A stretch of 12,508 bases of DNA, taken from positions 1 to 12,508 of the forward strand of contig JAADEE010000123.1 in the NCBI GenBank assembly GCA_013153575.1. The letters are read 5' to 3'. Positions within the stretch are counted from its first letter, which is position 1. Every line of letters starts with the position of its first letter. This stretch comes from Chlorobiota bacterium (GTDB taxonomy: Bacteria > Bacteroidota > Bacteroidia > Bacteroidales > JAADGE01). Positions 813-12,076 of the stretch are shown here, piece by piece. The position numbers and the translations under genes are program-made. The notes under the pieces were generated by a model that saw only the letters and a program-made list of their open reading frames with translations, was not told where the DNA came from and ran no database searches.

Positions 813-2135
813 TTATTCTTCCGGAAGGTTTAAAATGAAACCTTCCATGCCAATAATTTTATCTTTTTTATAAATAGGATTTGCAGATAATAGGTGTTTA
901 CCAATTGTGCCATCTTTACATTTTCTAATAGCAATTCTACTTGAAATGGTTTCTCCATTTTTAGTAACACGATTAAAAACATCGTCTAAATCTTTAATCC
1001 CTTTTTCATCTCTACTGCAAGAATAATGCTTCCCTATAATTTCATCTTTACTATCATATTTATATAAAGAAAGCCAAGCATTATTTACATCTTTAAAATA
1101 ACCGTTTATATCTAGCCAATAATAACCGGCTTCACTATGTCTTACAGCATCGTACATATGTAATGAATTGTCTTCTGTGTCAGAAATGTCTAGTACAAAT
1201 CCTTCTAAACCAACAATTTCTCCGTTTTCAAAAATAGGATTTGATGATAAGATATGTCTTCCTAAAGAACCATCTTTTTTCTTTCTTATAACAGGAACCC
1301 CAATAATTTTTTCTCCTGAAAGGACTTTTGAAACAAGGTCATCTAATTTTTTCAAATCTTTTTCTTCACGAGCAATAGAATAATGTTTACCAATAACCTC
1401 TTCTTTGTTATTATATCCAAACATTTTTAGCCATGCACTATTTACATCTGTAAAGATACCATTTTTATCTAAGCAGTAATATCCTGCAACACTTTTATCA
1501 ACAGCATCTTGCATATGTTTTAAGTGGTCTTCTTTTTCGTCAACATCAACAACTTCCCAACCTGTAAGCATTGCTTTTAAACTTGTGAAAATACCATCGC
1601 CTGTTGTTGTTAAATATACGTGTGCAATAACAAATGTAATTAGCAAGAATGCACCAATTGTGTGTATTATTGCAAATGTTTCCATTCCTGTTTCGTGTAG
1701 AGGATTGCTTGGGTAAAAATAATACATATATATGAAACCTGTTAATGCCTGTACAGGAATAACTAATAAGTTTAATCCTAGATAAATTAACCGTTGTAAA
1801 GGATTTAGTTTATTGTATCTTGTCTTTTTTGTTGGGTGTGGTGCACCTTTAAATATTCCGGAAATATAATACCTAAATTGTTCTTTAACAAACTTAGATG
1901 TTGGAATATATTGCCTCCATTCTCCTGTAACAAAGTGCCAAAAAAGTGCAAAAATGATAAGAACAAAGAATGCCCAAGCTGCTGTATTGTGCCATTTAAC
2001 AGCATTTTCAAAACCCATTAATGAGAAAGAGCTATGAACTTCAAACCCTGTTAGCATTAGAAATAATATTAGCAAAACTTGCGACCAATGCCAAAATCTT
2101 TCAAAACTTCTGTAAATATATGTTTGTTTCTTCAC
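813..2135 (-). CDS. Membrane cytochrome b (b561/hydrogenase-type) fused to two PAS domains
   Basis: A 440-residue protein. Residues 1-200 are a four-helix di-heme cytochrome b domain, with helices near 17-35, 48-70, 115-140 and 153-177. Candidate heme ligands are His16 (FWHW), His49 (KWHN), His67, His158 and His172. Such subunits take electrons from quinol and pass them to a periplasmic partner. The C-terminal half is a tandem duplication of about 115 residues with a period of 119: PAS1 near 205-318 and PAS2 near 324-437. Both copies carry GYY.LD..G, DVN.AWL, IGKHYS, IRK.KDG and EGF. No kinase, cyclase or other output domain follows; the protein ends at LPEE. The start is GTG. The next in-frame Met (27) lies inside helix 1 and would lose His16, and an in-frame stop lies 7 codons upstream. 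It sits 43 bp behind the octaheme gene and is probably its quinol-side partner. That pairing is inferred from context. Confidence 0.85.
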   Translation of the reverse strand: MKKQTYIYRSFERFWHWSQVLLILFLMLTGFEVHSSFSLMGFENAVKWHNTAAWAFFVLIIFALFWHFVTGEWRQYIPTSKFVKEQFRYYISGIFKGAPHPTKKTRYNKLNPLQRLIYLGLNLLVIPVQALTGFIYMYYFYPSNPLHETGMETFAIIHTIGAFLLITFVIAHVYLTTTGDGIFTSLKAMLTGWEVVDVDEKEDHLKHMQDAVDKSVAGYYCLDKNGIFTDVNSAWLKMFGYNNKEEVIGKHYSIAREEKDLKKLDDLVSKVLSGEKIIGVPVIRKKKDGSLGRHILSSNPIFENGEIVGLEGFVLDISDTEDNSLHMYDAVRHSEAGYYWLDINGYFKDVNNAWLSLYKYDSKDEIIGKHYSCSRDEKGIKDLDDVFNRVTKNGETISSRIAIRKCKDGTIGKHLLSANPIYKKDKIIGMEGFILNLPEE

Positions 2136-2178: not shown

Positions 2179-3900
2179 TTATTTTTTTCTTTTTATAATT
2201 CTAATGGTCATATGAATTAAAACAGAAATAAATGTAAGTATGATTATAATAACACCGCTATTATCAACAACTTTTGAGTAATCTCTACCCGGAAGGTAAA
2301 AATCAGTTAGTTCACTTAATCTACTATTATGAGAGTGACAATCTGTACAAGAAAGACTTTTTTCTTTTGGTGCAACCATGTGATTAATAGGCCAAAAACT
2401 TTCTGTTTCAATAAATGAATATTTGCCACTATAAGGTAAATTCAAGTAATCCATTCCTGCTTTAGCAGAAGCATTCCAATCAAAATCTACCCAGTATGCT
2501 CCTAAACCTTTAACTTTTCCTGCTAATTTAGGTTGTATTAAACTCATGTTTTCTTTATCATAAATTTGTTTACCTCTCATAATTTTAACAGGAATTATTT
2601 TTGAAGGATGATTTTTGTCAGATGGATGTATATTATCATAATATGAGCCAAAAGGTTTGTTTAATTTTAAAGCTTTTGTTGTATCTTTAATTTTATCAGA
2701 AATGAGTTGGTGATCGAAATAACCATTTGACCAAATATACTCAGGTTGTAGGTTATTAGCAAAAATGGCGGTACCATGTTTTGCATCATATTCTAATTTT
2801 ATATTTGATGAATCTTTCCGTGTTTTTAAATTTGGTAAATCTTTTGCTAAAATATAATCTCCATATTTACAAATTGTATCATTGCCTGTTATTTCTTTTT
2901 CATAATGTAGAGGTTTTCCGTCTTTTAATATTCCAGATGAAGACCAATCCCAATATATTTTTGTAGGATTAACTTTTGCATATGTTGGAATATGGCATGT
3001 TTGACAAGCAACTTGTTTAAAGTGGTCATTTAAAAGATTGTCTGTATGTGGTTTTTCTGTATGACAATCAACGCAAGAAACCCCATTTTGTGGAGAGCCG
3101 GAAATCATAGCAAGAGAACCTTTTATATTATGATTTATTGTTTTGTGGCATTTTTGGCAACTCATATTGTTGTCATTTGGACCTTTTGATGCCATATGAA
3201 CATCAACATCGCGAGTGCATTTTGTAAGAGCCATTTCTAAGTCTCCGTGTTTTACATTATTTCCTCCACCTCCCACAGCATGGCAAGAAACACAATTCTT
3301 TTTCTTAGGAAACCCAACATGTTGTGCAATTAAAGATAAATTTATAGATGGAGAAGGATTTCCGGCTCCGGGTAAATTAGGACCTTTACAAGGATTAGAT
3401 TTTTTATATGTTCCTGTATTATCATGACAAACTAAGCAGTCTTCATTATTTTGATTTGTAAAATCAAAGTTTTTATCTCCGTACCCATATCCTGCATGAC
3501 ACATTGAACATAGTTGTTCATTTGAGTTAATTCCTATACAAAAATTATTAAGAATGTTTTTTTTACCCATCTTAAGTTTTCCTTTCCCTGGAATTGAATC
3601 ATTTTTTAACCATTGAAAATGTTCAGTATGCATAAACTCTTCTCCTCTTTTATTATGACAAGAAAGACATGCTTCTGTAACTTCTTGCGGAGTTTTAAAG
3701 TCTTTTTGTAATTCTGCGAACTTTGTATGGTCTGCCCCCGTAAGCGTATCTGTACTATAATTTTGAATGTGAATTTTAGGAGCAAAATCATTTTTGCTAT
3801 AATACACATTATATATAAGAGCAAATAACCAAGGCAACATTATAAATGTAAATGTTGCTAATAATTTTATAAAATCACTTTTTGATTTGAAATATGCCAT
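2179..3900 (-). CDS. otr: Octaheme c-type cytochrome, tetrathionate reductase (OTR) family
   Basis: A 573-residue protein with eight CxxCH heme motifs, starting at Cys78, 131, 155, 203, 248, 276, 299 and 518. Seven fall in the first 303 residues and the eighth after a gap of about 215 residues, as in the octaheme tetrathionate reductase family. The characterised Shewanella member reduces tetrathionate to thiosulfate, and also nitrite and hydroxylamine, at a heme with lysine ligation. The GTYKK segment (163-167) after heme 3 is a plausible source of that Lys, but I could not align it. Extra Cys at 121, 171, 228 and 344 may form disulfides. The protein has an uncleaved-looking N-terminal helix (11-31) and a second helix at 548-567 followed by RIIKRKK, so it appears anchored at both ends with the heme domain outside the membrane. 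It is first in a minus-strand unit with the cytochrome b-PAS gene. Tetrathionate is the likeliest substrate, but reduction of nitrogen compounds cannot be excluded. Confidence 0.88.
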   Translation of the reverse strand: MAYFKSKSDFIKLLATFTFIMLPWLFALIYNVYYSKNDFAPKIHIQNYSTDTLTGADHTKFAELQKDFKTPQEVTEACLSCHNKRGEEFMHTEHFQWLKNDSIPGKGKLKMGKKNILNNFCIGINSNEQLCSMCHAGYGYGDKNFDFTNQNNEDCLVCHDNTGTYKKSNPCKGPNLPGAGNPSPSINLSLIAQHVGFPKKKNCVSCHAVGGGGNNVKHGDLEMALTKCTRDVDVHMASKGPNDNNMSCQKCHKTINHNIKGSLAMISGSPQNGVSCVDCHTEKPHTDNLLNDHFKQVACQTCHIPTYAKVNPTKIYWDWSSSGILKDGKPLHYEKEITGNDTICKYGDYILAKDLPNLKTRKDSSNIKLEYDAKHGTAIFANNLQPEYIWSNGYFDHQLISDKIKDTTKALKLNKPFGSYYDNIHPSDKNHPSKIIPVKIMRGKQIYDKENMSLIQPKLAGKVKGLGAYWVDFDWNASAKAGMDYLNLPYSGKYSFIETESFWPINHMVAPKEKSLSCTDCHSHNSRLSELTDFYLPGRDYSKVVDNSGVIIIILTFISVLIHMTIRIIKRKK

Positions 3901-4543: not shown

Positions 4544-6805
4544 ATGAAAACAACAAGACGAGATTTTATAAAGATTTCTTCATTAGGTATTGGAGGATTA
4601 GCTTTAAGTACTTCTCCTATTCTAGGGTGGGTACCAAGCTTTTTAAAAGAAGATGATAATACTCCCGATGACTCTACAGCTAAAAGGTATCCAAATTATT
4701 GTGAGGTTTGTTTTTGGAACTGTGCAGGTTGGGTTTACACAAATAAAGATAAGGACGGAAATGAAAAAATTTGGAAAATTATAGGTAATGATGATGATCC
4801 AAATAGTAATGGACGTTTTTGCCCAAGAGGAACAGGAGGAATAGGAATGTATTATGATAAGGATAGATTAAGAAAACCTCTAAAAAGAGTTACCGGTGAA
4901 GATGGAAATCAAACTTTTGTTGAAATAGAGTGGGATGAAGCAATTGATATCGTTGCAAAAAAAATGAAAGAAATAAAAACAAAGTATGGTCCGGAAAGTT
5001 TTGCTTTATTCAAACACGGAACAAGCGGAAAACATTTTGCAACACTTTTTAAGGCATATGGAAGTAAAAATATGGCAGGTCCTGCATATTCACAATGCAA
5101 AGCACCAAGAGAAGAAGGTTTTAGAATGACATTTGGTCATCCACTACATTCTCCTGAGCCATTAGACATTAGAAATACAAGGTGTTTAGTTTTAATCGGT
5201 TCTCACCTTGGAGAGAATATGCACAACGGACAAGTTCAAGAAATGTCAGAAGCTATTGAAAATGGGGCATCAATAATTACAGTTGATCCAAGATTTTCAA
5301 CAGCCGCAAGTAAATCTAAATTTTGGTTACCAATAAAACCATCAACAGATATTGCTCTTCTTTTAGCATGGATGCATGTTATAATTAAAGAAAAACGTTA
5401 CGACATTGATTATGTTGAAAAAAACACAAGTGGTTTTGAACAACTTAAAAACCATGTTAAAAACTTTACACCTGAATGGGCTTACGGAATAACAACAATT
5501 AAACCGGATATAATTCGCAAAACAGCGAGAGAAATGGCTGCAGCATCACCTGCAGTTATTATACATCCGGGAAGACATGCAACTTGGTATGGAGATGATA
5601 CACAAAGATCAAGAGCAATTGCAATACTAAATGCACTTCTTGGTTCTTGGGGAAGACGTGGAGGATTTTTTAATCCCGAAAAAGCAAAACTTCCAAAATA
5701 TCCAATGCCTGCATTTCCGAAACCAAAATGGTCATGGAGAGATATTGCACCCGATAAATATCCTCTTGCAAAAATGGGTGTTACAAATCTTCTTATTGAT
5801 GGTTCACATCCGGATAAAAAAGAAGGACATAAAATTAAAGCATGGTTTGTTGTAGGAACAAATCTTCCGGTAACAATTCCAAATTCAAAAAGAACAATTG
5901 AAGCTATACATAATCAAGAATTTATTGTTGTTGTTGATACAATGCCATCTGAAATGGCAGGATATGCAGATATTGTTTTACCGGAAGCAACATATTTAGA
6001 AAGATATGATGATTTAAGATTAGCCCAACATAGAGAACCAACAATTGCATTAAGAATGCCTGCTGCAAAACCATATGCAGAAACAAGACCGGGCTGGAAA
6101 ATGTGTAAAGATATTGCAGGTAAACTTGGTTTAAGTGAATATTTTAATTATAACGATTACTCTGAAGTTTTAGATTGGCAACTGAAAAAAATTGGTTCTT
6201 CTCTTGATGAGATGAAAGAAATTGGAGTAATGAAATTAGATAGAAAATATAATGATTTGTATTTCCATGAGCATATGGAGCATGAATTTGAAACACCAAC
6301 AGGGAAAATTGAATTTTATTCAAATGGAATGTTAGCTGCAGGTTTTGCCCCAATGCCGGTTTATACTAAACATCCTGAACCTCCAAAAGGATTTTATAGG
6401 TTGATATATGGAAGAGCTCCAATGCACACTTTCAGCAGAACAACAAACAACCCATATTTAATGGAACTAATGAAAGAAAATGCACTTTGGGTTAATCCAA
6501 AAACTGCAAAAGATTGGGGATTAAAAACAGGACAAAGGGTTTGGTTACAAAATCATCAAGGAGCAGTTTCTACTTTTTCTATTGCAGTTAGAGTAACAGA
6601 AAGAATTAGGCAAGATTCTGTATATATGGTACATGGTTTTGGACGATTAAATAAAAAATTAACAAAAGGTTATGGTGCCGGAATAAGTGATACAGAAATG
6701 GTTACAGATGTTAAAATTGATAAAGAAACAGGAAGTACAGGAATGAGAAGTAATTTTGTAACATTTTTAACGGAAGAACCTGAAAAAAAAGAAAAAACAG
6801 TTTAA
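4544..6805 (+). CDS. Molybdopterin oxidoreductase catalytic subunit, PsrA/PhsA type
   Basis: A 753-residue protein, the usual size for polysulfide/thiosulfate reductase A chains. It opens with a twin-arginine signal (TTRRDFIK, then a hydrophobic stretch to about residue 30), so it is folded with cofactor and exported. Residues 48-115 hold the [4Fe-4S] motif Cys53-x2-Cys56-x3-Cys60 and Cys93. The molybdopterin domain follows, and Cys185 in YSQCKAPREEG is the expected Mo ligand, as in the PsrA/PhsA/NapA side of the DMSO reductase family. The C-terminal molydopterin-binding barrel is at about 615-740 (RAPMHTFSRTTNNP, later VHGFGR). In this family the enzyme reduces sulfur compounds such as polysulfide or thiosulfate with electrons from the B subunit. 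It is the first of eight genes, followed by B and C subunits and sulfur-handling proteins, which favours a sulfur substrate. Other oxyanions handled by relatives (arsenate, selenate) cannot be excluded from sequence. Confidence 0.9.
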   Translation: MKTTRRDFIKISSLGIGGLALSTSPILGWVPSFLKEDDNTPDDSTAKRYPNYCEVCFWNCAGWVYTNKDKDGNEKIWKIIGNDDDPNSNGRFCPRGTGGIGMYYDKDRLRKPLKRVTGEDGNQTFVEIEWDEAIDIVAKKMKEIKTKYGPESFALFKHGTSGKHFATLFKAYGSKNMAGPAYSQCKAPREEGFRMTFGHPLHSPEPLDIRNTRCLVLIGSHLGENMHNGQVQEMSEAIENGASIITVDPRFSTAASKSKFWLPIKPSTDIALLLAWMHVIIKEKRYDIDYVEKNTSGFEQLKNHVKNFTPEWAYGITTIKPDIIRKTAREMAAASPAVIIHPGRHATWYGDDTQRSRAIAILNALLGSWGRRGGFFNPEKAKLPKYPMPAFPKPKWSWRDIAPDKYPLAKMGVTNLLIDGSHPDKKEGHKIKAWFVVGTNLPVTIPNSKRTIEAIHNQEFIVVVDTMPSEMAGYADIVLPEATYLERYDDLRLAQHREPTIALRMPAAKPYAETRPGWKMCKDIAGKLGLSEYFNYNDYSEVLDWQLKKIGSSLDEMKEIGVMKLDRKYNDLYFHEHMEHEFETPTGKIEFYSNGMLAAGFAPMPVYTKHPEPPKGFYRLIYGRAPMHTFSRTTNNPYLMELMKENALWVNPKTAKDWGLKTGQRVWLQNHQGAVSTFSIAVRVTERIRQDSVYMVHGFGRLNKKLTKGYGAGISDTEMVTDVKIDKETGSTGMRSNFVTFLTEEPEKKEKTV

Positions 6806-6845: not shown

Positions 6846-7379
6846 ATGAGATATGGAATGGCAATAGACACAAGAAAATGTGTCGGATGTAGCGACTGTG
6901 TTGTTGCATGTCAAACAGAAAATAGTATTCCTCACGGATATACCAGAGATTGGATTTCTGAAACTGTTGAAGGAATGTATCCTAATTTAGCATTGGAAAT
7001 TCGTTCTGAAAGGTGTAATCATTGCGATGATACTCCTTGTGTAAGAACTTGCCCAACAGGTTCTAGCCATATTATTGAAGGAGGAATTGTAAAAGTAACA
7101 CACGAAGAATGTATTGGGTGTGGAGCATGTATTGAATCATGTCCTTACGATGCAAGATACTTCCATCCGGAAGGATATGTTGACAAATGCACTTTCTGTG
7201 ATCATAGAGTTAAAAATGGTCAAGATCCTGCATGCGTTTCAGTATGCCCAACACACTGTATGTATTTTGGCGATTTAGATGACCCAAATAGTGAAATTTC
7301 AAAAGTGGTAGCAAAAAACAAAGTTAAAGTTTTAGCTCCTGAAGCAGGAACAAAACCACAAATTTTTTATTTAGTATAA
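6846..7379 (+). CDS. Four-cluster [4Fe-4S] electron-transfer subunit, PsrB/PhsB type
   Basis: A 177-residue iron-sulfur subunit that carries electrons from the membrane subunit to the molybdoenzyme. Four cysteine groups are visible: Cys12/15/18/22, Cys57/60/65/69, Cys89/92/95/99 and Cys115/118/130/134. This is the standard DmsB/PsrB/NrfC pattern for four [4Fe-4S] clusters, and an extra Cys138 is present. There is no signal peptide. B subunits of this type are normally exported by hitchhiking on the Tat signal of the A subunit. It starts 40 bp after the catalytic gene and 28 bp before the NrfD gene, which is the normal A-B-C order. The length is close to that of PsrB. Confidence 0.93.
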   Translation: MRYGMAIDTRKCVGCSDCVVACQTENSIPHGYTRDWISETVEGMYPNLALEIRSERCNHCDDTPCVRTCPTGSSHIIEGGIVKVTHEECIGCGACIESCPYDARYFHPEGYVDKCTFCDHRVKNGQDPACVSVCPTHCMYFGDLDDPNSEISKVVAKNKVKVLAPEAGTKPQIFYLV

Positions 7380-7407: not shown

Positions 7408-8427
7408 ATGAGAGAAGAACTTATTACAAGCGGAAGAATGAACCCGGGAATTGATCCTGTGCTTCATGGATGGCATTGGCCAATACCATTTTATTTATTC
7501 GTTGGAGGACTTGCTGCCGGACTTTTATTTTTTGCGGCATACAAAGTTTTATTCGGAAAAGAAAAAGACTTTCCAACAGCTGTTATGATAGGACCATTTG
7601 TTGCATTAGCTGCTATAGTTATGGGATTAATGGCATTAATTTATGATTTACATCACCCATTATATGCATGGCAATTATTCACAACAATAAGAATAGAGTC
7701 GCCAATGTCATGGGGGGCTTGGACATTAATGATTGTTTCAATTGTAAATGCTGTTTGGATTTTTACCTATCTTAAAAAAATATTTCCGGATTTTAATTTA
7801 AAACAAAACTTTTTAAGAAAAGTAATTAGTAACTTCATTGAAGAAAAACAATCTGAAGGAAAATTAAATTGGGATTGGAAATATAAATTTCTAAGAGATT
7901 TTGAAAGTTTTTTAATTAAGAATAGAAAAGCATTGGCTTGGTTAATGATGATTTTATCAATTATCTTAGGGGTTTATACAGGAATTCTTTTATCCGCATT
8001 TAATGCAAGACCTTTGTGGAATACAGCTTTATTAGGACCACTATTTTTAACATCAGGATTCTCAACAGGAGCTGCAATGTTAATGATACTTTCAAAAACA
8101 CACCTAGAAAAAATTGCATTTAGCAAAATAGATGTTTTGTTAATTATTATTGAACTATTTTTCATAACTCATATGTTTATGGGCTATTTAGCAGGTTCAG
8201 AAGTAAAAGCAGAAGCTGCACATTATTTTATGGGAGGTGAATTTACCGTAACTTTTTGGGTAAATGTAATAATTTTAGGACTTGTAGTTCCATTAGCATT
8301 AGAAACTATGGAATTGTTAAACGTTAAAATTCCTGTTATAATACCGGGACTATTAATACTTTGGGGAGGAATGATGTTTAGATTTATAATGGTAGATGCC
8401 GGACAAGTTATTAGATATTTATATTAA
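7408..8427 (+). CDS. NrfD/PsrC-type quinol-oxidising membrane subunit
   Basis: A 339-residue integral membrane protein with eight predicted helices, near 25-46, 57-81, 103-122, 174-196, 203-228, 240-262, 278-298 and 308-328. The first helix starts with the family-typical GWHWPIPFYLFVGGLAAG (21-38), with His20 and His23 near the presumed quinone side. NrfD/PsrC proteins anchor the AB dimer and oxidise quinol. A hydrophilic, Lys-rich loop of about 50 residues (123-172) separates helices 3 and 4. By the positive-inside rule it would be cytoplasmic, as would the YKVLFGKEKDF loop, placing the N-terminus outside. The gene follows the B subunit by 28 bp and completes a PsrABC-like complex. Confidence 0.9.
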   Translation: MREELITSGRMNPGIDPVLHGWHWPIPFYLFVGGLAAGLLFFAAYKVLFGKEKDFPTAVMIGPFVALAAIVMGLMALIYDLHHPLYAWQLFTTIRIESPMSWGAWTLMIVSIVNAVWIFTYLKKIFPDFNLKQNFLRKVISNFIEEKQSEGKLNWDWKYKFLRDFESFLIKNRKALAWLMMILSIILGVYTGILLSAFNARPLWNTALLGPLFLTSGFSTGAAMLMILSKTHLEKIAFSKIDVLLIIIELFFITHMFMGYLAGSEVKAEAAHYFMGGEFTVTFWVNVIILGLVVPLALETMELLNVKIPVIIPGLLILWGGMMFRFIMVDAGQVIRYLY

Positions 8428-8447
8428 AATTGAAAAAATATTATAAA

Positions 8448-8984
8448 ATGGAAGATATTAAAATTCAAAAACCACCTAAAAAATACATGAACCCATATTT
8501 AGCCGGAGTTCTTTTAGGAATAGTTATTCTTTTATCTTTTTACTTTACAAGAGAAGGTTTAGGAGCAAGTGGTGCTTTTAAAAGAGTTGTTGCAAAAGTT
8601 GAGCAAACAATTGTTCCATCACATCTTGAAAGTGAAAATTCAGCATTTCATCATTACGTTACAGATGGTAAAGACCCCCTTAAAAACAGATTAGTTTACA
8701 TGATTGTTGGAGTATTTATTGGAGGTTTTATTTCCGGGGCAATAAATAGAAGATTAAAATTAAAGTTAGAACATTCACCCAAAATAACCTCAAAAAAGAG
8801 AGCAATAGCTGCATTAATTGGAGGAGCATTGTTTGGATTAGGATCTGCTTTTGGTAGAGGATGTACAAGTGGAGCTGGACTTGACGGAATGGCAGTTCTT
8901 GCAACATCAGGTTTTGTTGTTGTTGCAATGATTTTTGGAGCAGGCTATGTGTTTGCTTGGTTTTTTAGAAAATTATGGATTTAA
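8448..8984 (+). CDS. YeeE/YedE-family half-size sulfur transporter, first copy
   Basis: From ATG 8448 the protein is 178 residues with four hydrophobic helices (about 18-33, 82-99, 118-136 and 154-172). A TTG 18 bp upstream (8430) would add six residues; I prefer ATG because it is A-rich upstream and TTG lies only 2 bp past the preceding stop. The key motif is FGRGCTSGAGLDG, with Cys139 as the only cysteine. YeeE/YedE proteins move thiosulfate or other sulfur species through the membrane, relaying them by conserved cysteines (TsuA is the characterised example). Classical members are about 350 residues with an internal duplication. Here the two halves are separate adjacent genes, and this half carries one Cys motif. 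It probably pairs with the next protein. Confidence 0.83.
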   Translation: MEDIKIQKPPKKYMNPYLAGVLLGIVILLSFYFTREGLGASGAFKRVVAKVEQTIVPSHLESENSAFHHYVTDGKDPLKNRLVYMIVGVFIGGFISGAINRRLKLKLEHSPKITSKKRAIAALIGGALFGLGSAFGRGCTSGAGLDGMAVLATSGFVVVAMIFGAGYVFAWFFRKLWI

Positions 8985-9005: not shown

Positions 9006-9593
9006 ATGGGACCACTATTTAATGCAAATGATGAATGGAGTTTTGTCATTGCCCTTGTTATAGGAATTGCTTTCGGTTTTATTCTTGAAAGTGCAGGATT
9101 TTCATCATCAAGAAAACTTGCCGGAGTATTTTATGGATATGATTTTGTTGTTTTGCAAGTGTTTTTTACAGCAGCAATTACAGCAGCAATAGGTTTATTG
9201 TTTTTTGAATATTTTGGGTGGATTGACCTTTCTGCCATTTGGATAAATAAATTCTATGTTGGTTCTGCAATATTAGGCGGTGGGCTTATGGGATTAGGAT
9301 TTATTATTGGAGGATTTTGTCCGGGAACAAGTGCTTGTGCATCAGCAATTGGTAAAATTGATGCAATGTTGTTTTTAGGAGGATTCATTATAGGTGTTAT
9401 TATTTTCGATTTATTCTACCCTCTTTATAAACCATTTTATAAAGCAAGTAGCATGGGAGCATCAATGATATATGATGTGTTAGGAATGAATAAATATGTA
9501 TTTTTATTATTATTTGTAATTGTTGCAATTTTATCTTTTGTTGGAACTGCATATATACAACAAAGAGTTTCTAAAAAAACAAAAAAATATTAA
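9006..9593 (+). CDS. YeeE/YedE-family half-size sulfur transporter, second copy
   Basis: A 195-residue membrane protein. It begins with the family signature GFILESAGFSSSRKLAG (24-40) and DFVVLQV (46-52). A second signature follows, GGLMGLGFIIGGFCPGTS (92-109), with Cys105 and Cys111 inside the membrane. Helices lie near 12-30, 46-68, 84-104, 119-138 and 163-185. It follows the first copy by 21 bp, and the two together supply three cysteines, the number important in TsuA. Both have their own start and intact ends, so this is a split pair and not a frameshifted gene. Cargo is probably thiosulfate or another sulfane-sulfur species, by family and context. There is no TusA-like partner in the window, which is usual next to importers that feed the cytoplasm. 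It ends 5 bp before the first rhodanese gene. Confidence 0.85.
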   Translation: MGPLFNANDEWSFVIALVIGIAFGFILESAGFSSSRKLAGVFYGYDFVVLQVFFTAAITAAIGLLFFEYFGWIDLSAIWINKFYVGSAILGGGLMGLGFIIGGFCPGTSACASAIGKIDAMLFLGGFIIGVIIFDLFYPLYKPFYKASSMGASMIYDVLGMNKYVFLLLFVIVAILSFVGTAYIQQRVSKKTKKY

Positions 9594-9598
9594 AAGTT

Positions 9599-10252
9599 AT
9601 GAGCGATATAAGGATAATTAAAAAACGCTATATTTTTATGGCATCAGTATTTATCGGTTTAGCTCTTTTATTAGTTTTATTACCGGAAAGGCATACATTA
9701 AAAGAACTAAAAGCAGAAAGGCTTTTACAAGAAGTAAATGACAACACTCGTTATTTTACAACAGACGATGTTGCAGAAAAAATTATTGCAAATGATGCAT
9801 ATATGCAATTAATAGATGTAAGAACTCCCGAAGATTATAAAAACTTTCATCTTAAAGGAGCAATAAACATACCTATTGATAGTATATTAAATAAGGATGA
9901 GGATGGGAATTATACCTATGAAGGAATTCTAAATCAAGATTTAAAAGCAAACGTTTTCTATTCTAATGGAACTATATATTCTAATCAAGTATGGTTGTTA
10001 TTAAGAAGGTTGAAGTACAAAAACAATTATGTTATGGAAGGCGGACTTAATAAATGGATTGAAACTATTATTAAACCGACAAAACCTTCAGCAACTGCAA
10101 GTCAAAAAGAACTTGACAGGTACGATTTTAGACGTGCAGCAAGTATGTATTTTGGTGGAGCTAGTGTTACGGTATCTGCAGAAGAAGATGTTCCGGCTCC
10201 GACTCCTGTTATTAAAAAAAGTGCATCGAAGGAAGAAGAAGGTGGATGCTAA
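9599..10252 (+). CDS. Membrane-anchored rhodanese-like protein, no active-site Cys, C-terminal GGC tail (A)
   Basis: A 217-residue protein. Positively charged residues (IKKR) precede one helix at about 12-28, giving N-in topology with the rest outside. Residues about 52-157 form a rhodanese fold: LIDVRTPEDY, HLKGAINIP, then NVFYSNG and MEGGLNKW. Counting back from the LKY strand, the active-site Cys column is Ser122, so sulfurtransferase chemistry at the usual site looks impossible. A linker follows, containing DRYDF and GGAS (173-189), then APTPVIKKSASKEEEGGC at the exact C-terminus. Cys217 is the only cysteine in the protein. It starts 5 bp after the second transporter gene and 29 bp before rhodanese B. 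My inference is that the fold is a docking or structural scaffold and the tail Cys carries sulfur. Anchoring or disulfide pairing through the tail is the alternative. Confidence 0.88.
   Translation: MSDIRIIKKRYIFMASVFIGLALLLVLLPERHTLKELKAERLLQEVNDNTRYFTTDDVAEKIIANDAYMQLIDVRTPEDYKNFHLKGAINIPIDSILNKDEDGNYTYEGILNQDLKANVFYSNGTIYSNQVWLLLRRLKYKNNYVMEGGLNKWIETIIKPTKPSATASQKELDRYDFRRAASMYFGGASVTVSAEEDVPAPTPVIKKSASKEEEGGC
10196..10249 (+). other. C-terminal GGC tail of rhodanese A
   Basis: Encodes APTPVIKKSASKEEEGGC, residues 200-217. The final codons are GAA GAA GAA GGT GGA TGC before TAA. It aligns residue by residue with the tails of B and C. Confidence 0.9.
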
Positions 10253-10281
10253 ACAATTATTTATTTTTTAAATAAGAAAAA

Positions 10282-10926
10282 ATGGAAATTATAGGACATA
10301 AAAAAATATCAAATAAATTACCTATACTTGGGATTGTTTTTATTTTAATTGTTATTTTAGGTTTAGTAACAATGGAAATACCAAGGCATATTTATCGTCT
10401 TAGTACAGAGGAAATGTTAGAAAAAACAATGAAACATGATTATATAATTCGTTATGATAAATTTTTTGACATTTATCATAATAACGATTCTTTATATAGA
10501 TTTATAGATTTACGTTCAGCAAAAGATTACCAAATATCGCATTTAGAAGGAGCTATAAATATTCCTATTTCAAAAATTTTAGATTTTAAGTATAGAGATA
10601 TTGTTAATCAAGACGAGAAAATAAATGTTTTATATTATTCTGACCAAGGAGGAGCTTGTGCTCCATGGATGATTCTTACACAATTAGGTTATAAAAACAA
10701 TTATATTTTAGGTGGAGGATATGATTATGTTAAGAATCATATTATTGATGAATATTCTCCTATGTTAGGAAGTTTCTTAGGAGAGAAAGCAAAGTACGAT
10801 TATAAAGAAATAATAAATAATACAGCCGGAGGTGCATCTGCATCATCAGCAAGTAACGATGTTTCAGACACCCCAGCTCCAATTATTAAAAAGAAAGCTT
10901 CTGCTGAAGAAGAGGGAGGATGTTAA
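10282..10926 (+). CDS. Membrane-anchored rhodanese-like protein, no active-site Cys, C-terminal GGC tail (B)
   Basis: A 214-residue paralogue of the preceding protein, with a single anchor helix (about 14-31) after IGHKKISNK and an extracytoplasmic rhodanese-like domain at about 55-155. The FIDLRSAKDY, HLEGAINIP and QLGYKNNYILGGG elements are kept. In the active-site column the residue is Tyr119, next to Ser120, so the catalytic Cys is missing. Cys126 lies seven residues later in a GGAC segment outside the normal position. The linker repeats the A pattern (KYDYK, then AGGAS) and is Ala/Ser-rich to about residue 195, ending in PAPIIKKKASAEEEGGC with Cys214. Codons for the tail differ from A at synonymous sites, so similarity is held at protein level. 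The function is unknown; partnership with A, C and the transporter pair is inferred from operon position. Confidence 0.87.
   Translation: MEIIGHKKISNKLPILGIVFILIVILGLVTMEIPRHIYRLSTEEMLEKTMKHDYIIRYDKFFDIYHNNDSLYRFIDLRSAKDYQISHLEGAINIPISKILDFKYRDIVNQDEKINVLYYSDQGGACAPWMILTQLGYKNNYILGGGYDYVKNHIIDEYSPMLGSFLGEKAKYDYKEIINNTAGGASASSASNDVSDTPAPIIKKKASAEEEGGC
10873..10923 (+). other. C-terminal GGC tail of rhodanese B
   Basis: Encodes PAPIIKKKASAEEEGGC, residues 198-214. The final codons are GAA GAA GAG GGA GGA TGT before TAA, with synonymous differences from A and C. Confidence 0.9.
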
Positions 10927-10954
10927 TTAGGTTTAATTTCTAAAAAAAAACAAA

Positions 10955-12076
10955 ATGAACAAAAAAGCATATTTTTTACCAATAATATTTTTTGCATTAT
11001 TATTTGTAAATATTGGGTGTTCAACAGACAATCCTAAAAATAAAAAGCTTATAAAAGAACCTGCAAAAGAAATAAATGAAAGCGAAGCTTTAGTTAAATT
11101 TTTAGAGCAATCTGGAAATATAATTAATGCAAAACGAATTCCAACATTAATTTCTGCAGAAAAAGTTAAAGCAAACCTTAAAAATTTTCTTGTTATAGAT
11201 TTAAGAAAACATAGTGATTATGTAGCTGGACATATTGATGGTGCCGTTAATGTTTCAATTAAAGACCTTGTTTCATACATGAAAACTAAAGTTGCAGCAG
11301 AAGTTTATGATAAAATTGTTTTAGTTTGCTATTCTGGACATAAAGCAAGTTTTGCAGCAATGACTTTACAACTTTTAGGCTATAAAAATGCTTATGCTAT
11401 GAAGTGGGGAATGAGTTCTTGGGATAAAAACACAGCATCAACAAAGTGGTTAAAAGCAATATCTGATAAATATAGTTCAAAACTTGAAAAAACAGATAAC
11501 CCAAAGGGAGCAAAAACAAAACTTCCTGAAATTAAAACAGGAAAAGTTTTAGGTTATGATATTCTTGAAGAAAGAGCAAAAACCATTTTAAATAAATTAG
11601 ATTTTAAAATTAGTGTTGATAAATTAATGGAAAATCCATCTGATTATTACATCATTAATTATTGGCCTGATTATAATTATCAAAAAGGACATTTGCCGGG
11701 AGCTATTCAATACGATCCGAAATTAAGTTTAACAGCAGATAAAGAACTTTTAACACTACCAACAGATAAAAAAATAGTTGTTTATTGTTATACAGGACAA
11801 AATGCAAGTTATACTGCAGCATATTTGCAAATTTTGGGCTATGATGCATATACATTAACTTACGGAGCAAATTCATTTATGCATTCAAAACTTACAAGTT
11901 TAAAAATAGGACATGCATTTAATAGTTCACAAATTAAAAATTATCCTTTAGTTGAAGGAGAATTGCCAAGTATAAAAAAAGAAGGTGCAACTGTTAGTGA
12001 AGAGCCTGAAGAAGATAATGCAACTCCAATTATAATTAAAAAGAAATCAACAGCAGAAGAAGAGGGAGGTTGCTAA
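10955..12076 (+). CDS. Tandem-rhodanese lipoprotein with intact active sites and C-terminal GGC tail (C)
   Basis: A 373-residue protein with a lipoprotein signal. The lipobox is NIGC with Cys22, followed by STDN, and no charged retention signal is obvious. Two rhodanese domains follow: domain 1 about 62-160 (IDLRKHSDY, GHIDGAVNV, loop CYSGHKAS with Cys125) and domain 2 about 216-310 (GHLPGAIQY, loop CYTGQNAS with Cys278). Both active-site cysteines are present, unlike A and B. In domain 2 the usual Asp-Val-Arg strand is replaced by INYWPDY. The protein ends in ATPIIIKKKSTAEEEGGC with Cys373. Rhodaneses transfer sulfane sulfur through a Cys persulfide, and the periplasmic Sud protein of Wolinella delivers polysulfide sulfur to Psr, a plausible analogy. 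It is last in the operon, 28 bp after B and 20 bp before the terminator stem. It is probably the active sulfurtransferase that loads or unloads the tails. Confidence 0.9.
   Translation: MNKKAYFLPIIFFALLFVNIGCSTDNPKNKKLIKEPAKEINESEALVKFLEQSGNIINAKRIPTLISAEKVKANLKNFLVIDLRKHSDYVAGHIDGAVNVSIKDLVSYMKTKVAAEVYDKIVLVCYSGHKASFAAMTLQLLGYKNAYAMKWGMSSWDKNTASTKWLKAISDKYSSKLEKTDNPKGAKTKLPEIKTGKVLGYDILEERAKTILNKLDFKISVDKLMENPSDYYIINYWPDYNYQKGHLPGAIQYDPKLSLTADKELLTLPTDKKIVVYCYTGQNASYTAAYLQILGYDAYTLTYGANSFMHSKLTSLKIGHAFNSSQIKNYPLVEGELPSIKKEGATVSEEPEEDNATPIIIKKKSTAEEEGGC
12020..12073 (+). other. C-terminal GGC tail of rhodanese C
   Basis: Encodes ATPIIIKKKSTAEEEGGC, residues 356-373. The final codons are GAA GAA GAG GGA GGT TGC before TAA. 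An acidic stretch (SEEPEEDN) precedes it. Confidence 0.9.

Follow-up and report, generated by a model that had tools for sequence, protein, structure and literature searches.

Organisation of the locus

The window analysed here (12,508 nucleotides, contig JAADEE010000123.1 of a Chlorobiota bacterium) encodes three consecutive proteins of the rhodanese fold, P1, P2 and P3, with a common C-terminal tail that ends in a cysteine. As the initial annotation had noticed and the open reading frames (ORFs) confirm, these proteins of 217, 214 and 373 amino acids (aa) all close with EEEGGC, the cysteine being the last residue before the stop codon; the region first given for them, 10181..12076, begins within P1, whose true start lies at 9599. 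The tail had been read as a sulfur-carrying arm, with a sorting or anchoring tag as the alternative. Upstream on the same strand lie, in this order, PhsA-, PhsB- and NrfD-like genes and two half-genes of a YeeE/YedE transporter, YeeA and YeeB; an octaheme gene and a cytochrome b gene occupy the other strand. The tailed proteins are encoded as follows:

P1, 9599-10252, + strand: membrane-anchored rhodanese-fold protein of 217 aa (PF00581, E 9.9e-15)
P1 tail, 10160..10249, + strand: residues 188-217, ending EEEGGC (pLDDT, the AlphaFold2 confidence per residue, <50 over 188-217)
P2, 10282-10926, + strand: membrane-anchored rhodanese-fold protein of 214 aa (PF00581, E 9.6e-12)
P2 tail, 10831..10923, + strand: about residues 184-214, ending EEEGGC (tail start set by eye and alignment)
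P3, 10955-12076, + strand: lipoprotein of 373 aa with two rhodanese domains (PF00581, E 3.8e-30, two stretches)
P3 tail, 11975..12073, + strand: residues 341-373, ending EEEGGC (pLDDT <50 over 341-373)

The C-terminal sequences read ...PVIKKSASKEEEGGC in P1, ...PIIKKKASAEEEGGC in P2 and ...PIIIKKKSTAEEEGGC in P3. A Pro-x-Ile-Lys-Lys motif had been ascribed to all of them, which is not right for P3, where the corresponding stretch is P-I-I-I-K-K. Other differences first described between the proteins are borne out. Pfam finds one rhodanese stretch in P1, one in P2 and two in P3; a simple hydropathy scan gives P1 and P2 one N-terminal hydrophobic helix each, while P3 has a lipobox, VNIGC, recognised by eye; and the final six codons differ at synonymous places among the three genes. 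The same scan detects no hydrophobic segment beside the tail in P1, P2 or P3, and the cysteine stays last.

In the AlphaFold2 model of P1 the rhodanese domain is well modelled, with pLDDT block means exceeding 90 over roughly residues 51-180, and the last 30 residues have no structure; the end of P3 is likewise unplaced. The models thus predict that the P1 and P3 tails are unstructured arms. Foldseek matched the P1 model to rhodanese structures (best 2hhg, E 5.6e-7), and a sequence search of the PDB returned five weak rhodanese-type matches to P1 (best E 0.0029) and none to YeeB. We infer that the rhodanese part of P1 lies outside the cytoplasm, because of its hydropathy together with the basic end of YeeB and the basic start of P1.

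The terminal cysteine among homologues

Homologues were sought in genome samples from the order and the phylum of the window, reached solely from the window's own kin. A scan of GTDB contigs with P1 led to 13 loci. GGC closes both P1 and P2 in 13/13 of them, and it closes P3 in 10/11 of those with a P3 frame (the exception being locus L016). Of 295 order genomes, 93 have P3 relatives; around the better P3 places 80 stretches were fetched with their neighbours, and 10 more came from a search for EEGGC followed by a stop. After dropping identical proteins and ORFs cut at the 3' end of a stretch, a cysteine is found within the last three residues of 48/48 P1, 51/58 P2 and 11/13 proteins in which YeeB is fused to P1. 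For P3 the count is 52/65 when YeeE or octaheme genes lie in the stretch (26/26 with an octaheme gene). Without such genes, in stretches that are sometimes cut by contig ends, 12/31 have the tail cysteine and 19/31 do not, so P3 is not tailed everywhere. Among other frames of at least 150 aa in the same loci, real genes or not, 29/1014 have a cysteine so placed, a background that rejects chance as the source of the terminal cysteine in the tailed families.

The ends of 174 tailed ORFs are GGC (116), GGCE (19), GGCG (15), GGCS (6), GGCD (5), GGCN (4) and others (9). In the phylum sample a P1 profile, whose rows include the tail, matches 43/395 genomes, the window's among them. The other 42 genomes hold 43 further P1 or fusions, and 43/43 end in Cys or in Cys plus one residue: GGC in 20, EGC in 18, the remainder DGC, FQC, MGC, GGCG and GGCA. 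Many of these profile matches end short of the tail, which therefore did not select those sequences. Among homologues the residues ahead of the cysteine shift from EEE to GGG to KKKK, and the cysteine persists. One relative was met in the plasmid collection, on a Gemmatirosa megaplasmid (Gemmatimonadota); it sits beside YeeA and YeeB relatives and ends in RLRRRGC.

Several loci depart from the common pattern. P2 of L098, L111, L113 and L121 has no GGC and shares the end ...FDExCPDLN, with cysteine fifth from the end; P1 and P3 there end in GGCG or GGCS. L128, L131, L135, L142, L149 and L154 have the order YeeA-YeeB-P1, with a P1 end of DGGC or VGGC followed by G or E and a tailless P3 on the other strand; in L128, L149 and L154 a P2 relative has no cysteine at all. 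In L242 (4925-6610) a 561-aa protein with weak rhodanese-profile matches directly precedes YeeA-YeeB-P1, and P1 there ends in FQC.

Loss of the canonical catalytic cysteine

The name rhodanese, first given to all three proteins, is right as to the fold (PF00581 in each) and, in P3, as to the canonical active-site cysteine, present in both domains. Aligned by reading at the C-x-x-G loop, P1 has Tyr121 at the catalytic position, and C217 is its sole cysteine; P2 also has tyrosine there. The name therefore overstates P1 and P2, which are better called rhodanese-like. Across 104 unique P1, fusions included, the catalytic position is Tyr in 65, Phe in 22, Val in 8, Ile in 5, Leu in 2, Met in 1 and Cys in 1; it is thus not Cys in 103/104, and a cysteine lies somewhere in the loop region in 5/104. 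Stand-alone P1 (n=71) have one cysteine in 50 cases, two in 16, three in 4 and four in 1.

Alignments of 14 rows each have C217 as the only invariant cysteine of P1, with G215 also invariant, and C214 as the only one of P2. In 12 rows of P3 the lipobox C22 and the catalytic C125 and C278 are invariant, and C373 is kept in 11/12. Judged from these alignments, the catalytic cysteine has been lost from P1 and P2, in which that of the tail is the only invariant one. The P2 loop (about 10630-10675 of the window) reads CGAC followed by GPW, a thioredoxin-like arrangement, in 6/14 rows; the window keeps the second cysteine only (GGAC).

The tail cysteine might then fold back into the rhodanese pocket of its own protein and replace the lost catalytic residue. 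Asp73 and Arg75 of the fold are unchanged in 104/104 P1, in which the canonical position has all but once lost its cysteine, and an arm of about 30 residues would be long enough to reach the pocket. Yet P3, with both catalytic cysteines, is usually tailed too, and the P1 model leaves the tail unplaced; we give such catalysis in cis a slender chance. A visit to the pocket is compatible with a swinging arm, as one of its stops.

Confinement of the tail to one family

The window's genome comprises 1.75 Mb and is 70.7% complete. Within it, the pattern GARGGNGGNTGYTRR has three forward matches and none in reverse, and 3/3 are the P1, P2 and P3 genes. The shorter GGC-stop pattern (stop as TRR) occurs at six places, which are P1, P2, P3 and three frames of at most 15 codons. 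Only four rhodanese-domain places were found in this genome, all within P1, P2 and P3.

Across the phylum sample (395 genomes), EEEGGC-stop occurs at five places, the window's three and two with a TGG codon instead of a stop. In the order sample (393 genomes), EEGGC-stop was met 35 times, in 20 genomes; 23 of these places close frames longer than 200 aa (stop to stop), 23/23 of which are relatives of P1, P2 or P3, and the remaining 12 frames have at most 48 codons. A lysine-rich version, K[KR][KR]EGC-stop, was met at 22 places in 22 genomes of the phylum sample, two of them with TGG rather than a stop. Fifteen of its frames have at least 60 aa, 14 of these (each >200 aa) match the P1 profile, and five frames have at most 30 codons. 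Frames of at least 100 aa with EEGGC-stop or K[KR][KR]EGC-stop endings are hence confined, in these two samples, to this rhodanese family. The 72-aa frame with the lysine-rich end, L290, has no P1-profile match at E 1e-3 and looks like a broken P1, having its YFGG region. Other genes seem broken as well: in L293, as in L290, only the last, tailed part is in frame, and the L133 fusion stops before the tail.

In 104 fetched stretches, GGC with or without one residue after it closes 166 labelled rhodanese or fusion frames (counted with duplicates between collections) and no other frame of at least 40 aa. The tail is no general property of rhodaneses in these genomes either. From 50 rhodanese places in six genomes, 30 were fetched; five, each of them in the cassette, end in GGC or EGC, another has a Cys-rich SKC end, and 24 have no cysteine in the last three residues (two of the 24 share one ORF). 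Applied to these samples, the search proposed at the outset, for tails near YeeE/Psr genes or among unrelated exported proteins, returned long frames of this family only.

Likeness of tails within one locus

Tails of the same locus resemble one another. Over the 8 residues ahead of GGC, the 129 pairs of tails from 53 loci with at least two tails agree at 4.56 positions within a locus, as against 1.76 when loci are shuffled, and the maximum of 2000 rounds of shuffling is 2.18. The residue after the cysteine, or its absence, agrees in 94.6% of within-locus pairs and in 49.8% of shuffled ones. At the tail positions with the same residue (n=1030), the codon is also the same in 569 (55%), 51% being expected from codon usage. 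On the whole codons are nearly independent while the peptides are alike, and therefore recent copying is not a general explanation. The 20 pairs with 12/12 identical residues differ at 0 to 9 of 36 bases. The initial claim, selection on the peptide and no recent DNA duplication, thus stands overall but not for some loci, where the near-identical DNA looks like a recent duplication. The likeness is explained, as far as codons and peptides can tell, by shared selection or by copying long ago and later selection on the peptide.

Alike tails within a locus are also expected under a shared processing enzyme. A sorting or anchoring tag would have a dedicated enzyme recognise the GGC end and attach it to lipid, to the cell wall or to a further protein, and it would suit the presence of one C-terminal module on proteins with different anchors. 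We nonetheless regard it as unlikely. The long frames with the tail belong to this family only in the samples searched, and the pattern-first searches of the window's own genome, the order and the phylum do not bear out a tag spread across many exported proteins. No hydrophobic segment lies near the tail; membrane helices are already present in P1, in P2 and in the polytopic YeeB-P1 fusion, and P3 has its lipobox. The unlabelled ORFs lying within 8 kb of P1 in 104 distinct loci, 675 in number, include no recurring processing gene, genes elsewhere not having been sought: the commonest family, a MerR-like regulator by eye (for instance in L228), reaches 20/104 loci, and the next two 12 and 10.

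Genomic context of the tailed proteins

P1 is encoded beside a split YeeE/YedE transporter, and often fused to it; the usual further neighbour is a sulfur oxidoreductase, either of the Phs/Psr type or octaheme. In the window these neighbours are:

YeeA, 8430-8984, + strand: carboxy-terminal YeeE/YedE half (PF04143 positions 174-308 of 310, E 3.8e-22), with a cysteine in GRGCTSG
YeeB, 9006-9593, + strand: amino-terminal YeeE/YedE half (PF04143 positions 11-156 of 310, E 5.8e-13), with a cysteine in GGFCPGTS
PhsA/PsrA-like molybdopterin oxidoreductase, 4544..6805, + strand (PF00384, E 1.9e-44; RR signal sequence by eye)
PhsB/PsrB-like iron-sulfur subunit, 6846..7379, + strand (Fer4_11, E 8.2e-23)
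NrfD/PsrC-like membrane subunit, 7408..8427, + strand (PF03916, E 3.9e-48)
Octaheme tetrathionate-reductase-family cytochrome, 2179..3900, - strand (TIGR04315, 496.6 bits, above the cut-off of 375)
Cytochrome b561 with two PAS domains, 813..2135, - strand (PF01292, E 4.8e-28; PAS, two sensory_box stretches)

The YeeA start is TTG, the first start given by the tool; an ATG follows a few codons downstream. The top NCBIfam match of the 4544..6805 product is PhsA at 485 bits, below the curated cut-off of 694, so this protein is classed as Phs/Psr-like only.

YeeE genes lie in the stretch for 46/48 P1, the exceptions being L166 (at a contig end) and L016. In the phylum sample they accompany 42/43 P1, 18 of them by fusion, L216 being the exception. 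Among the 25 stand-alone P1 of that sample, 21 have both YeeE and Phs, one has Phs only and three have YeeE only (L212 among them, on a contig of 3.4 kb). The 18 YeeB-P1 fusions have the octaheme gene, the second recurring neighbour of the tailed module, nearby in 17 cases and Phs in one. Judged by length, YeeB is fused to P1 in 31/100 YeeB rows. On a quick YeeB tree the fusion state needs four changes, at least two of them forced by well-supported branches, and hence fusion or splitting probably happened more than once. A cysteine is conserved in 99/99 YeeA and 100/100 YeeB rows. From the profile matches, the YeeB and YeeA cysteines appear to fall at about the places of Cys91 and Cys293 of TsuA, both of which are indispensable (PMC11582611, excerpt). 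Tailed P2 and P3 were met mostly in the window's order, and we infer a minimal module of YeeA, YeeB, P1 and one sulfur oxidoreductase.

Several tailed partners with similar tails at one locus, at a site that would be periplasmic by predicted topology, are what one expects if the terminal cysteines of P1, P2 and P3, perhaps with YeeE, form disulfides that hold a complex together and carry no sulfur. In 41/43 phylum loci, however, no labelled tailed P2 or P3 lies by P1 (L215 and L216 have a tailed P2), and therefore only homodimers or a bond to YeeE would be possible there. The fusion, moreover, already joins P1 to YeeB, yet the tail cysteine is kept in 18/18 phylum fusions. Such a tether is in our view quite unlikely; like sorting tags, it is less likely than a swinging arm.

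The cytochrome b561 gene recurs next to the octaheme gene. In the window its two PAS domains are C-terminal, and many relatives, of about 215-245 aa, are too short for PAS, which suggests that a sensor may have been added to a membrane electron carrier. The adjoining PAS-domain cytochrome, the MerR-like regulator (by eye) within 8 kb in 20/104 P1 loci and the varying make-up of a tail whose cysteine persists could all fit a tail that binds metal, haem or a regulator and senses sulfur or redox state rather than carrying sulfur. Against this stand the single cysteine, with no histidine or second cysteine conserved in the tail, and the lack of a regulator common to most loci; we hold a sensor to be highly improbable. 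The small MerR-like regulator may control the module.

A candidate swinging arm for sulfur

We consider that the tail is probably, at moderate confidence, a swinging arm for sulfane sulfur, analogous to that of SoxY and mounted on exported rhodanese-fold proteins. The genomic evidence supports this reading, as the initial annotation had it, over a sorting tag: in the samples searched the tail is specific to one family, and P1 is linked to YeeE (46/48 and 42/43). That the tail cysteine is the sole invariant cysteine of P1 and P2 in 14 rows each, and that P1 is fused to YeeE in many genomes, strengthen the idea of a carrier arm.

In such a mechanism about 30 flexible residues would present a cysteine at the tip of an exported rhodanese-fold protein, as its last residue or the one beside it. 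The cysteine would carry sulfane sulfur as a persulfide, or as a thiosulfonate derived from thiosulfate. Loading may take place at Phs, at the octaheme enzyme or, where P3 is present, at its live rhodanese sites, and unloading at the pair of channel cysteines of YeeE, followed by import. Flow may instead run the other way, with the reductase receiving sulfur from YeeE or from free polysulfide.

A number of observations weigh against the carrier arm. In YeeE or octaheme contexts 7/58 P2 and 13/65 P3 have no tail cysteine, the fusions of L133 and L163 have no tail, and 12/31 P3 have the tail cysteine with neither gene in the stretch. The residues before GGC vary from Glu-rich to Gly-rich to Lys-rich, and therefore no fixed motif backs a single docking site. 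L016 (10001-12510) has tailed P1 and P2 and 10 kb of upstream sequence without YeeE, and L216 has the order Phs-P1-P2 without YeeE, P1 coming immediately after NrfD. In L008, L009, L010, L013, L113, L157 and one pair of L101, tails differ at 0 to 3 of 36 bases and look recently copied, and the likeness within loci comes in part from common descent, which the shuffle keeps. The homologues are related, so that all counts are of non-independent events. Finally, the cysteines along the channel are about 7 Å apart, for which reason direct transfer from one to the other has been doubted (PMC11582611, excerpt).

L016 and L216 weaken the notion of a tail dependent on YeeE alone. The arrangement in L216 suggests that the arm can also serve a Phs-like enzyme.

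A bolder form of the swinging-arm proposal, which we advance tentatively as a real possibility, is a phylum-wide delivery from protein to channel. The rhodanese fold, stripped of its catalytic cysteine, would act as a membrane-tethered docking platform, from which the peptide arm inserts its persulfidated terminal cysteine into the mouth of the split YeeE. Sulfane sulfur would then cross without release of a free ion, by a solution convergent with SoxY and hard-wired by fusion. Neighbouring genes encode the carrier arm and the channel, and many genomes join the two in a single polypeptide, which makes the question testable with one protein pair. If true, it would explain widespread rhodanese-like proteins without a catalytic cysteine. 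A rhodanese fold with a terminal cysteine beside YeeE would offer a simple genome marker for sulfur metabolism.

Comparison with known systems

Excerpts of PMC11582611, PMC5336275, PMC6067878, PMC13188914, PMC12142623 and PMC13047784 do not mention a terminal-Cys tail. In a literature search outside which most subscription papers and all bioRxiv preprints fell, we found no title or abstract start naming such a tail, and no paper combining rhodanese, C-terminal cysteine, C-terminal tail and persulfide. Literature matches to an EEGGC, EEEGGC or GGC tail concern other subjects by their titles.

Sorting tags of the LPXTG, PEP-CTERM and GlyGly-CTERM kinds consist of a motif followed by a hydrophobic helix and a basic end, and are shared by many unrelated proteins. 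Unlike these, P1, P2 and P3 have no C-terminal hydrophobic helix, and in their own genome (70.7% complete) the tail is found on these genes only.

Sud of Wolinella is an exported rhodanese of a Psr operon. In Desulfurivibrio an exported triple-rhodanese is encoded in a Psr operon, and others stand beside YeeE genes (PMC12142623, excerpt). No terminal-Cys arm is mentioned for these Psr-operon rhodaneses in the excerpt of that article, and, unlike them, P1 and P2 have no active-site cysteine. The window resembles the Desulfurivibrio case in having an exported sulfurtransferase-type protein in a Psr-like operon.

LbpA has a fold unrelated to that of rhodaneses; unlike the tailed proteins, it is a lipoyl protein and acts in a cytoplasmic pathway. 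In this lipoate-binding carrier of the sHdr pathway a cysteine near the C-terminus is often glycine-flanked, and the authors compared it with SoxY (PMC6067878, excerpt).

Like TsuA, SoxT and the half-size PmpAB, the window's YeeB and YeeA belong to the YeeE/YedE family, YeeB covering its amino half and YeeA its carboxy half, with one conserved cysteine each. The half-genes encode 184-195 aa, unlike the PmpAB proteins of about 130 aa (PMC11582611, excerpt). A further difference from TsuA, SoxT and PmpAB is the frequent fusion of YeeB to a tailed rhodanese domain, which the same excerpt does not mention.

SoxY carries its intermediates on a cysteine in a swinging arm (PMC5336275, excerpt), within the sequence GGCGG (PMC6067878, excerpt), and the passing of its sulfur to the YeeE-like SoxT has been called conceivable (PMC11582611, excerpt). 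No Sox model is among the listed Pfam and NCBIfam matches of the window's proteins; sox genes nearby were not sought. The tailed proteins are like SoxY in having a C-terminal, glycine-flanked cysteine on a putative periplasmic carrier, and 15 of the tails end in GGCG. They differ from it in fold, PF00581 being the only Pfam family reported for P1 and P2 up to E 0.1, in being membrane-anchored or fused to a transporter, and in the Glu-, Gly- or Lys-rich make-up of the arm. We propose that they work like SoxY and, given their rhodanese fold, are not SoxY.

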